NCBI RefSeq assembly: GCF_014653945.1
Contig: NZ_BNAU01000003.1
Location: forward strand, 62,001-126,000
Direction: 5' to 3'
Source: Amycolatopsis deserti
GTDB taxonomy: Bacteria > Actinomycetota > Actinomycetes > Mycobacteriales > Pseudonocardiaceae
Length of the DNA: 64,000 nucleotides
Below are positions 29,770 through 31,931 of this stretch, one piece after another (position 1 is the first letter of the stretch; each line of letters starts with the position of its first letter). Below the pieces are notes generated by a model that had not been told where the DNA came from, did not search any database, and worked only from the letters and a program-made list of their open reading frames with translations. A program made the translations under genes and the position numbers.

Positions 29770-29804
29770 TTAGCACTCTAGCCACGGGAGTGCTAGCCGC
29801 GCAA
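29770..29804 (-). promoter_or_regulatory. groES promoter with CIRCE operator (HrcA site)
   Basis: TTAGCACTC (29770-29778), a 9-base spacer and GAGTGCTAG (29788-29796) match the CIRCE consensus with one mismatch in the right arm. On the minus strand, TTGCGC (29799-29804) and TAGAGT (29775-29780), 18 bases apart, form a promoter whose -10 lies inside CIRCE, so bound HrcA would block transcription. Confidence 0.92.
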
Positions 29805-29896: not shown

Positions 29897-30385
29897 GTGA
29901 CGGTGGACAGTGCGCCTGAGGTGGAGTCGCTGATCGGCTCGCTCACCTCGGAGCTCGTGTTCGCCCGGACGGGCCGCCTCGGCGCCGGTGGCGTCGCCGC
30001 GGAGGTGTACGAGCTCGCGCTGCGGGCACAGAGGGCGCTCGAGCGCGAGGCCGACCTGTCGATTCCCGGCCCGCAGTCGCCGGCTGACGTCGCGCCGGCG
30101 CTGTTCGCGGTCGATCCCGCTACCGGCCTCGACCTGATGCTGGAGCTGGCCGCCGAGGACCTGGCCTTCCAGACCGAGTTGTGCGCCGACCGCGAAGCGG
30201 CGCGAGCCGCGGTGGAGCACATGGCGGTGCTGCTGGGCGGGGACGCCCTGTGGTGGACGAACACGACACGCGGTGGCAGCGGCAGGAGCTGGACGCCGGT
30301 CACCCGCCACACCTTCGACGGTGTGGTCGCCGTCGTCGCGACGGGTGGGATGTTCGCGGCGCTGCTCCAGGTCGCCGAGGACTGA
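29897..30385 (+). CDS. Conserved-type hypothetical protein
   Basis: A protein of about 162 aa from the GTG at 29897 (a GTG at 29903 is equally possible; the frame is open from 29834). It is mostly helical and acidic, with SLIGSLTSELVFARTGRLGA near the start and a hydrophobic end, FDGVVAVVATGGMFAALLQV. No signal peptide or recognised domain is visible. It diverges from groES across the CIRCE region, about 100 bases away. Codon pattern and composition support a real gene; the function is unknown. Confidence 0.65.
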   Translation: MTVDSAPEVESLIGSLTSELVFARTGRLGAGGVAAEVYELALRAQRALEREADLSIPGPQSPADVAPALFAVDPATGLDLMLELAAEDLAFQTELCADREAARAAVEHMAVLLGGDALWWTNTTRGGSGRSWTPVTRHTFDGVVAVVATGGMFAALLQVAED

Positions 30386-30432
30386 ACCTCATCGTCACGT
30401 AGCGATACCACCATCTCACTCGTTGGGCGGTG

Positions 30433-30459
30433 TTGACCTCGTCCGCACCTCCCTACCTT
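30433..30459 (+). promoter_or_regulatory. Candidate promoter of the cysteine-rich micro-ORF
   Basis: TTGACC (30433-30438) and TACCTT (30454-30459) resemble -35 and -10 boxes, but the 15-base spacing is short. They lie about 40 bases before the micro-ORF start. Confidence 0.35.
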
Positions 30460-30499
30460 GGGACACGGCCCGGACACGACTGGAAGGAATGGTGTTCCC

Positions 30500-30565
30500 A
30501 TGGGTGGTTGCAGCTGTTGCAGCTCGTGCAGTGGCCCCGGATGCGGTTGCTGCGGAGGCTGCTAG
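30500..30565 (+). CDS. Cysteine-rich 21-residue micro-ORF
   Basis: ATG to TAG encodes 21 residues, eight of them Cys (positions 4, 6, 7, 10, 15, 17, 18 and 21); the rest are almost only Gly and Ser with one Pro. GGAAGGA lies 11 bases upstream, a candidate promoter precedes it, and a 15-bp-stem hairpin follows 16 bases after the stop, so it has the full outline of a small transcription unit. The cysteine spacing (CxCC, CxxC, CxCC) suggests metal or thiol chemistry, such as a metallothionein-like peptide. A regulatory leader is less likely because no gene follows on this strand for about 1 kb. I do not recognise a family, and chance cannot be excluded. Confidence 0.5.
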   Translation: MGGCSCCSSCSGPGCGCCGGC

Positions 30566-30581
30566 CACCGGCCTTGACCTG

Positions 30582-30621
30582 AACGGCCCCGGGACCCCGA
30601 CGGCGTGGTCCCGGGGCCGTT
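30582..30621. terminator. Bidirectional hairpin between the micro-ORF and MDR gene
   Basis: A perfect 15-bp inverted repeat, AACGGCCCCGGGACC (30582-30596)/GGTCCCGGGGCCGTT (30607-30621), with a 10-base loop sits between two convergent units. It lacks a T tract on either strand, a form common in actinomycete terminators. Confidence 0.75.
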
Positions 30622-30625
30622 CGCG

Positions 30626-31480
30626 TCACACCGTCAGCACGATCTTCCCGCGCACCCGGCCGCTCTCGCTCAGCTCGTGCGCCTTCGCGGCGTCCTCCAG
30701 CGGCAGTACCTGCGAGACGTGGACCCGCACGCCCTCCACGGCACGCGCCAGCGCCGCCCCGGACGGCTGCACGTGGAACCGGCGGTAGCGCGGGTCCTCC
30801 GCGGCGTCGTTGCCCTGCGCGTCGATCAGCACGCCGTCCGGCTTCAGGACGACGAGCGAGCGCCCACCGTACGAACCGCCGACCAGGTCGTACACCACGT
30901 CCACCTCCGACACGGCCGTCGTGAAGTCCACCGCCGTGTGGTCGATCAGCTCGTCCGCGCCCAGCTCGCGCAGGAACTCGTGGTTGGCCGATCGCGCGGT
31001 GCCGATCACGTACGCGCCCCGCGCCTTCGCCACCTGCACCGCGACGTGCCCGACCCCGCCGGCCGCCGCGTGGATCAGCACCCGCTGCCCCGGCCGCACC
31101 TCGGCAAGCGCTTGCGTCGCCGTGAGCACCGCCGTCGGCGCAGCGGCCGCGGCGACGTGGTCCCGCCCGGCCGGCTTGGGCGCCAGCGCCGCGGCGGGCA
31201 CCGCCACGTACTCGGCGTACGCGCCCCACTGCGACATCACCAGCCCGAACACCTCCTCCCCCGTCTCCTCGACCACGCCGGAGAAGTCCAGCCCGAGCCG
31301 GAACGGCGGCGTGAGCCCCACCCCGTCCACCAGCCCGCGGCGCAGCTTCCAGTCCGCCGGGTTCACCCCCACCGCGTGCACCCGCACCAGCACCTCGCCC
31401 GGCCCCGGCACCGGCCGCGGCGCATCCACCAGCTCCAGGACCTCCGGCCCGCCCAGGGCCCGCACATCGACAGCTCTCAT
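30626..31480 (-). CDS. MDR-family NADPH:quinone oxidoreductase-like protein
   Basis: A 284-aa zinc-independent medium-chain reductase. The N-terminal GroES-like fold includes MRAVDVRALGGPEVLELVDA and HAVGVNPADWKLRRG; the nucleotide-binding motif is VLIHAAAGGVGHVAVQVAKA. The zinc-ligand cysteines of alcohol dehydrogenases are missing, as expected for quinone reductases. It is slightly short for the family. The ATG at 31478-31480 was preferred over an upstream open frame. It diverges from an HxlR regulator, a frequent pairing for response to electrophiles or quinones. Confidence 0.93.
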   Translation of the reverse strand: MRAVDVRALGGPEVLELVDAPRPVPGPGEVLVRVHAVGVNPADWKLRRGLVDGVGLTPPFRLGLDFSGVVEETGEEVFGLVMSQWGAYAEYVAVPAAALAPKPAGRDHVAAAAAPTAVLTATQALAEVRPGQRVLIHAAAGGVGHVAVQVAKARGAYVIGTARSANHEFLRELGADELIDHTAVDFTTAVSEVDVVYDLVGGSYGGRSLVVLKPDGVLIDAQGNDAAEDPRYRRFHVQPSGAALARAVEGVRVHVSQVLPLEDAAKAHELSESGRVRGKIVLTV

Positions 31481-31517
31481 GGCGAAGATCGTCGCCCCGG
31501 GCGGTATCCGTTGTGAA

Positions 31518-31529
31518 GAAGGCACCTTC
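31518..31529. promoter_or_regulatory. Possible HxlR operator
   Basis: GAAGG-CA-CCTTC is a perfect 5-bp dyad in the 67-base region between the MDR gene and the divergent HxlR gene. GGTA and GGTACC elements at either side may extend it. Confidence 0.45.
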
Positions 31530-31547
31530 CTGACATCCAGGTACCTC

Positions 31548-31931
31548 ATGGATACCGTGAAGTCCTACCTGACGGCCTGCCCGGCCCGCACCGTGCTCGA
31601 CGCGCTCGCCAACAAGTGGAGCCTGCTGGTCCTCAGCTCGCTGCGCCGGCACGACGGCCCGATGCGGTTCAACGAGCTGCGCCGCCTGCTCGAGGGCATC
31701 ACGCAGAAGTCGCTCACCCAGACCCTGCGCACCCTGGAGCGCGACGGCCTGGTCGACCGGGCCGTCTACCCGACCGTGCCGCCACGCGTCGAGTACTCCC
31801 TGACCGATCTGGGCACGCAGGTCGGCGAGATGTTCAACGTCCTGGGCGAGTGGGCCGAGGAGCACGTCGGCGAGATCCTCGCCGCGCGGGAGGCGTTCGA
31901 CAACAGGCCGGCGCCGGAACCGCTCCGCTGA
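31548..31931 (+). CDS. HxlR-family transcriptional regulator
   Basis: A 127-aa winged-helix regulator. CPARTVLDALANKWSLLVLS carries the N-terminal Cys typical of redox- or electrophile-sensing HxlR proteins, and FNELRRLLEGITQKSLTQTL, then RTLERDGLVDR and EYSLTDLGTQV, complete the HTH and wing. The ATG at 31548 is the only sensible start although the frame is open far upstream. It probably controls the divergent quinone-reductase-like gene from the dyad between them; the cysteine at residue 11 could be the sensor (inference). Confidence 0.94.
   Translation: MDTVKSYLTACPARTVLDALANKWSLLVLSSLRRHDGPMRFNELRRLLEGITQKSLTQTLRTLERDGLVDRAVYPTVPPRVEYSLTDLGTQVGEMFNVLGEWAEEHVGEILAAREAFDNRPAPEPLR

Follow-up and report, generated by a model that had tools for sequence, protein, structure and literature searches.

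A conserved 21-codon cysteine-rich micro-ORF of Pseudonocardiaceae as a candidate gene for a metallothionein-like peptide

INTRODUCTION

The copper thioneins of Neurospora and Agaricus, with 26 residues and 7 cysteines, were once the shortest metallothioneins reported, as stated in the available portion of PMC4755600, and the metallothionein of Mycobacterium tuberculosis is considered a copper metallothionein in the available portion of PMC10612145. Short cysteine-rich reading frames of mycobacteria have also been described, namely, the polycysteine leader ORFs (Canestrari et al. 2020, as cited in the excerpted text of PMC9094748).

Here, we report on a micro-ORF that is invisible to standard annotation owing to its length and that lies in a window of 64,000 nucleotides (the whole stretch of DNA that was analysed). 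The original prediction, made from the window, was that of a cysteine-rich micro-ORF; this observation is confirmed, and the evidence is now stronger than was first noted. Metallothioneins typically combine a composition of Cys, Gly, Ser, Asn, and Lys with CxC, CC, and CxxC spacing, and the peptide described here is likewise small and Cys rich, with CxC, CC, and CxxC motifs and little else.

RESULTS

The micro-ORF encodes the peptide MGGCSCCSSCSGPGCGCCGGC, in which 8 of the 21 residues are Cys and the remainder are Gly, Ser, Asn, Lys, and Pro. The predicted count of eight Cys in 21 codons was borne out, and translation revealed a more exact spacing than had been noted: two CxCCxxC units, four residues apart. 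By inspection, the peptide has no hydrophobic signal-like stretch, and G or C occupies 14 of the 21 third codon positions, as had been counted before. No other frame of 15 to 45 codons in the window reaches 25% Cys; when the window was simulated 60 times with a first-order Markov model, such frames arose at 0.05 per 64 kb, and none had 8 or more Cys. The features of the locus are as follows.

30416-30431, plus strand: upstream element TCACTCGTTGGGCGGT, a putative operator or activator site, from its conservation
30454-30459, plus strand: -10-like box TACCTT, at a conserved distance from the upstream element in Amycolatopsis
30482-30488, plus strand: Shine-Dalgarno-like GGAAGGA within the conserved stretch GAAGGRATGGTG, from sequence and conservation
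30500-30565, plus strand: micro-ORF, 21-residue peptide and stop codon, from translation, conservation, and codon evolution
30581-30622, plus strand: 16-bp perfect hairpin, a putative terminator that would serve the convergent gene too, from pairing and recurrence

Conservation within the genus was assessed with a 256-base DNA query (positions 30385 to 30640), which did not select for cysteines, against 19 Amycolatopsis genomes, the source genome included. A DNA match was present in 17 of the 19, and the ORF was intact (ATG, stop codon, and all eight Cys) in 16, among them the source genome. Two genomes (G009 and G010) gave no DNA match to the query, and the match in a third (G012), which comprised 46 bases inside another coding frame, was rejected as a chance match. 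Pooled pairwise comparison of the 12 distinct alleles from the 16 genomes gave a dN/dS of approximately 0.20 (pS, 0.42; pN, 0.11). Amino acid substitutions fell at residues 2, 5, 11, 13, 14, 19, and 20; all of the Cys residues and Gly 3, 12, and 16 were invariant, with silent codon changes present.

Two profiles, A1 (10 Amycolatopsis sequences) and A2 (32 sequences), were used to search 297 genomes of the Pseudonocardiaceae. Profile A1 matched 108 of these genomes, in 31 of the 46 genera, at an E value of ≤0.01, and A2 matched 209 genomes, in 40 of the 46 genera, at an E value of ≤0.05. The core was present in all 40 of the 10-kb stretches chosen from the A1 matches, and it was these stretches, rather than every match, that were inspected. 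At least nine loci were confirmed in named genomes, belonging, among the matches listed, to Amycolatopsis, Lentzea, Saccharopolyspora, and Longimycelium; Amycolatopsis and Longimycelium were verified as Pseudonocardiaceae, and some genomes (e.g., G027 and G202) carry two copies. Outside the family, no match was found in a class sample of 394 genomes at an E value of ≤0.01, the two matches there being the source genome and another genome of the same family, and a phylum sample of 396 genomes, which overlaps the class sample, yielded, besides the source genome, one partial match (10 positions, 15.6 bits; E = 0.049). The E values of a 21-residue profile are individually weak (with A2 in the family genomes, the best was 4.3e-7 and that of the source genome was 2.1e-5); the case for the family is based on recurrence and on near absence outside it. 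Retention of the ATG, the frame, and the cysteines in close relatives had been proposed as a check, and all three were kept in the 16 of 19 genus genomes, alongside the 209 family genomes with a profile match. Where no match was obtained, namely, in 3 of the 19 Amycolatopsis genomes and in 88 of the 297 from the family, the micro-ORF is either dispensable or was missed.

Alignment of 32 members gave the invariant core G-C-x-C-C-x-x-C-x-G-x-x-C-G-C-C-x-x-C, which comprises the two CxCCxxC units. Three residues precede the first Cys in the Amycolatopsis members, and many other genera have 1 to 14 extra N-terminal residues of variable sequence, such as MVRTEDKPAETAQLGG- in L064, the start codons of these extended members having been picked by Shine-Dalgarno score; the longest relatives reach 36 residues. 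For the first, second, and third codon positions, the mean entropy across 65 distinct core DNA sequences was 0.49, 0.44, and 1.17 bits, respectively, and the three Gly sites were fixed in all 65, with all four Gly codons in use. These cores were extracted by the Cys pattern and were largely found by profile, so that their Cys invariance is by construction and Gly was possibly favoured; the same invariance of Cys and Gly also holds in the 12 Amycolatopsis alleles, which are free of Cys-pattern selection. The residues besides Cys and Gly drift mostly among small polar ones and form no conserved surface. It is because of the codon-position entropy and the fixed Gly sites in the 65 cores, together with the unbiased Amycolatopsis alleles, that we recognize the signature of a selected peptide, and because of this codon evolution that we take the peptide to be real. 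As judged by comparison of coding sequences, we have shown that the frame encodes a peptide under purifying selection and that this predicted micropeptide is widely retained in a single bacterial family irrespective of the genes beside it.

Upstream of the micro-ORF, TCACYC-N4-RGCGGT precedes a TANNNT box by 22 to 23 nt in all 16 Amycolatopsis loci. The family form, approximately TCRCYC-N4-RGYGGT (a regular expression composed after the sequences had been seen), was found in 44 of 58 distinct rows and was absent from the other 14; the element and the box occurred together in 38 of 58. A candidate promoter had been predicted here, and the two approaches to it disagree: a consensus sigma-70 scan of the region found no promoter and did not list TACCTT, whereas comparison supports one, with TCACTCGTTGGGCGGT and TACCTT conserved at a fixed spacing. 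The predicted ribosome-binding site was upheld, GGAAGGA lying in the conserved GAAGGRATGGTG, 11 nt before the ATG by inspection.

All eight perfect matches of TCACTCGTTGRGCGGTG in the 19 Amycolatopsis genomes are located at the micro-ORF. When up to two mismatches were allowed, the source genome had 4 matches, versus 2 for a reversed-pattern control, and the 19 genomes together had 46, versus 41 for the control; micro-ORF sites account for 15 of the 46, including the 8 perfect matches and 4 of the 5 with one mismatch. One other recurrent match, TCACCCGGTGGGCGGTG (7 genomes), falls within open reading frames of the source genome, the one genome of the seven that was viewed. Neither a regulon sharing the element nor a second recurrent promoter site for it was found in the 19 Amycolatopsis genomes at up to two mismatches. 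Because 46 is hardly above the control value of 41, the element looks private to the micro-ORF, on the evidence of these matches, and reveals no regulon. We know of no metal-regulator site that it matches.

The arms of the hairpin that follows the stop codon (30581-30596 and 30607-30622) enclose a 10-base loop, and there is no T run; a consensus terminator scan listed nothing at this position. A perfect hairpin had been predicted and is present, but it has 16 pairs rather than the 15 bp first given. Among 65 distinct downstream stretches, 58 have stems of at least 8 pairs, and no two of the 65 share the same sequence. Relative to 40 mononucleotide shuffles per stretch, the hairpin had a z value of at least 2 in 51 of the 65, all 16 Amycolatopsis loci included, and fell below that value in 14. 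The conserved upstream element and a recurring hairpin of changing sequence support the prediction that the micro-ORF is its own transcription unit.

In the window, the micro-ORF is located between an ORF of 160 to 183 residues (29903-30385, plus strand), for which no Pfam match was found, and a convergent zinc-binding dehydrogenase. The latter, an MDR dehydrogenase (30626-31549, minus strand), is divergent from an HxlR-type regulator (31548-31931, plus strand), with which it probably forms an ordinary regulator-target pair. An inverted repeat of the GCACTC/GAGTGC type, presumably akin to the CIRCE operator (HrcA site), is situated at 29770-29796, upstream of groES (minus strand).

At 34 of the 46 loci compared, the gene called next after the micro-ORF is encoded on the other strand, and the 12 same-strand cases are spread over 11 neighbour clusters; the gene calls were crude and GC based, with some false antisense frames. 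The original prediction had suggested a search beside groES or MDR genes, and such a link proved not to be general: groES (Cpn10) was found near 5 of the 46 loci and groEL (Cpn60) near 4, in Amycolatopsis and one other genus. The commonest next gene, at 19 of 46 loci (including L064 and L079), is a convergent TAP-like alpha/beta hydrolase, assigned by Pfam from one member. One representative was annotated for each of the 18 other clusters present in at least 4 loci. These comprised LigD parts, an EamA transporter, MsrB, DUF6319, Cpn10, Cpn60, an amidase, a HemE-type URO-D, a chlorite dismutase family protein, RibD, a LuxR-type regulator, an amine oxidase, SPW, a short-chain dehydrogenase, and three proteins without a family. 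Near the TAP-like arrangement, some loci have genes of haem-pathway type (URO-D, amine oxidase, and chlorite dismutase family), MsrB, LigD parts, and RibD, which together recall what we take to be the mycobacterial hemE-msrB-ribD region. This convergent arrangement is possibly the ancestral position of the micro-ORF, and we read the neighbourhood as an old shared chromosome segment, not a functional operon. At the remaining 27 loci, which lack the TAP-like gene, 20 of the 54 immediate neighbours, and a few more of them, were annotated. No recognized metal-resistance or RiPP-modifying gene was found among the 18 cluster representatives, the 20 immediate neighbours, and five further proteins. 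At one locus (L078, genome G036), a gene of the cysteine dioxygenase family (PF05995), approximately 140 to 760 bases past the core, converges on the micro-ORF; this is a single case.

Searches of Pfam, metallothioneins included, gave matches at an E value of ≤10 for 0 of 32 members, although 21 to 34 residues is very short for profile searches. NCBIfam gave noise alone (one of 32 members versus QueC; E = 3.1), a weak test for so short a protein. The A2 profile had no match among PDB sequences at an E value of ≤10. Further searches of PDB, plasmids, and phages gave no matches, tblastn with low-complexity filtering being weak for such peptides. No published description of the micropeptide was found in the literature searched, as judged by titles and abstract openings and partly among the matches listed. 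A well-conserved 21-codon bacterial gene can thus be without any Pfam or NCBIfam model.

DISCUSSION

The evidence favours, with some confidence, the interpretation that positions 30416 to 30622 form a gene in its own right, the product of which is a metallothionein-like peptide of very small size. From the composition of the peptide, we infer that it binds metal or thiols and that it is a metallothionein in function, one that is a member of no metallothionein family in Pfam or NCBIfam. It can be proposed that transcription would start from the conserved promoter under a regulator, probably dimeric, or through a special promoter mode, and that the translated peptide, having no hydrophobic signal-like stretch, would stay in the cytoplasm. 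There, the eight thiols may wrap soft metal ions in one small cluster, Cu(I) first and Zn(II) or Cd(II) next, such that the peptide would buffer or sequester metal and perhaps serve as a thiol reserve. A cytoplasmic metal buffer is the most economical reading because there is no signal-like stretch and no constant partner gene and because the micro-ORF has its own conserved upstream region. Counting against a metallothionein are the lack of a recurrent metal-handling gene among the examined neighbours and of a regulon for the element; further points against it are that there is no Pfam similarity, that the micro-ORF is lacking in some genomes, and that the element or the hairpin is lacking at some loci.

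A more specific proposal can be put forward tentatively, namely, that this is a metallothionein characteristic of the Pseudonocardiaceae, with 21 residues and 8 thiols in a tandem CxCCxxC arrangement, which is governed by a dedicated regulator through TCACYC-N4-RGYGGT and is independent of metal-resistance operons. If a metallothionein it is, the peptide would rank with the smallest metal-binding proteins encoded by a gene, and it would come from a family of soil bacteria that produce antibiotics. It would also provide a natural scaffold of minimal size for thiolate-metal clusters, and the conserved upstream element would offer a direct handle for finding the regulator.

Other explanations have to be weighed. 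The CxCCxxC units might hold structural zinc or disulphides in a redox or zinc-binding peptide that acts on another protein and is no metal store. The three fixed Gly residues and the exact spacing do suggest a defined fold, and the variable N-terminal residues of many other genera, with starts placed by Shine-Dalgarno score, would suit such a partner; however, the residues other than Cys and Gly offer no conserved surface, and the extension is absent in Amycolatopsis, so we regard this role as unlikely. It is improbable, too, that the peptide is a RiPP precursor in which an enzyme encoded at another locus turns Cys and Ser or Thr into (methyl)lanthionines or azoles, with the GG before the first Cys as the leader boundary in some genera. 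The core is rich in Ser, Thr, and Cys, and extended members such as L064 have a short N-terminal part that ends in GG, but the Amycolatopsis members, with just three residues before the first Cys, therefore have no leader. Moreover, the Ser sites change to Gly, Asn, Thr, Ala, or Lys, and no modifying enzyme was seen among the sampled neighbours.

The combination of a short Cys-rich actinobacterial ORF and a hairpin after it also calls to mind a cysteine-responsive attenuator of the mycobacterial polycysteine type, a role that the original prediction had doubted since no gene follows on the same strand. That doubt is supported: in the window, as at the 34 loci, the gene that comes next is encoded on the opposite strand, and the same-strand cases are scattered over many clusters. 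In addition, Gly is fixed, with silent codon change among the four codons, in the 65 cores and in all 12 unbiased alleles, whereas an attenuator would need the Cys codons alone; we therefore consider this role very unlikely. There appears to be little likelihood of a small RNA, whether non-coding or of dual function, to which the reading frame would be secondary. The predicted transcript of approximately 150 to 160 nt and the fold of 30460-30640 (z, -2.77) would fit a small RNA, as would an Rfam match to F6 sRNA at 30580-30623 (27 bits; E = 0.045), but that score is below the gathering threshold of 46 bits and the match spans the hairpin alone, the sequence of which is unconserved, whereas the codons evolve as those of a protein. 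Finally, a chance open frame, to which the very short length and the low third-position GC for this genome had seemed to point, can be dismissed for practical purposes given the conservation in the genus and the family, the dN/dS and entropy pattern, and the Markov expectation.

Among known systems, the polycysteine small ORFs of mycobacteria resemble the micro-ORF as short Cys-rich actinobacterial frames; in the excerpted text of PMC9094748, they regulate a downstream gene, whereas the next gene of the micro-ORF is mostly convergent and its non-Cys residues are conserved. The likeness to bacterial metallothioneins lies in their being small Cys-rich proteins, as SmtA/BmtA and MymT are. SmtA/BmtA and MymT, the latter of which we take to be the copper metallothionein of M. 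tuberculosis, are about twice the length of the micropeptide or more. SmtA, in the available portion of PMC10612145, has a zinc-finger fold, and no relation to SmtA-type proteins or MymT was detectable by profile (Pfam and NCBIfam).

In conclusion, the metallothionein-like peptide proposed here is closest in size and composition to the copper metallothioneins of Neurospora and Agaricus, which are likewise very short and Cys rich. As given in the available portion of PMC4755600, their pattern is X2-CXC-X5-CXC-X3-CXC-X2-C-X3, compared with CxCCxxC-x4-CxCCxxC in the micropeptide, which is bacterial and, with 8 Cys in 21 residues, both shorter and denser than the 26-residue, 7-Cys metallothionein of Neurospora.
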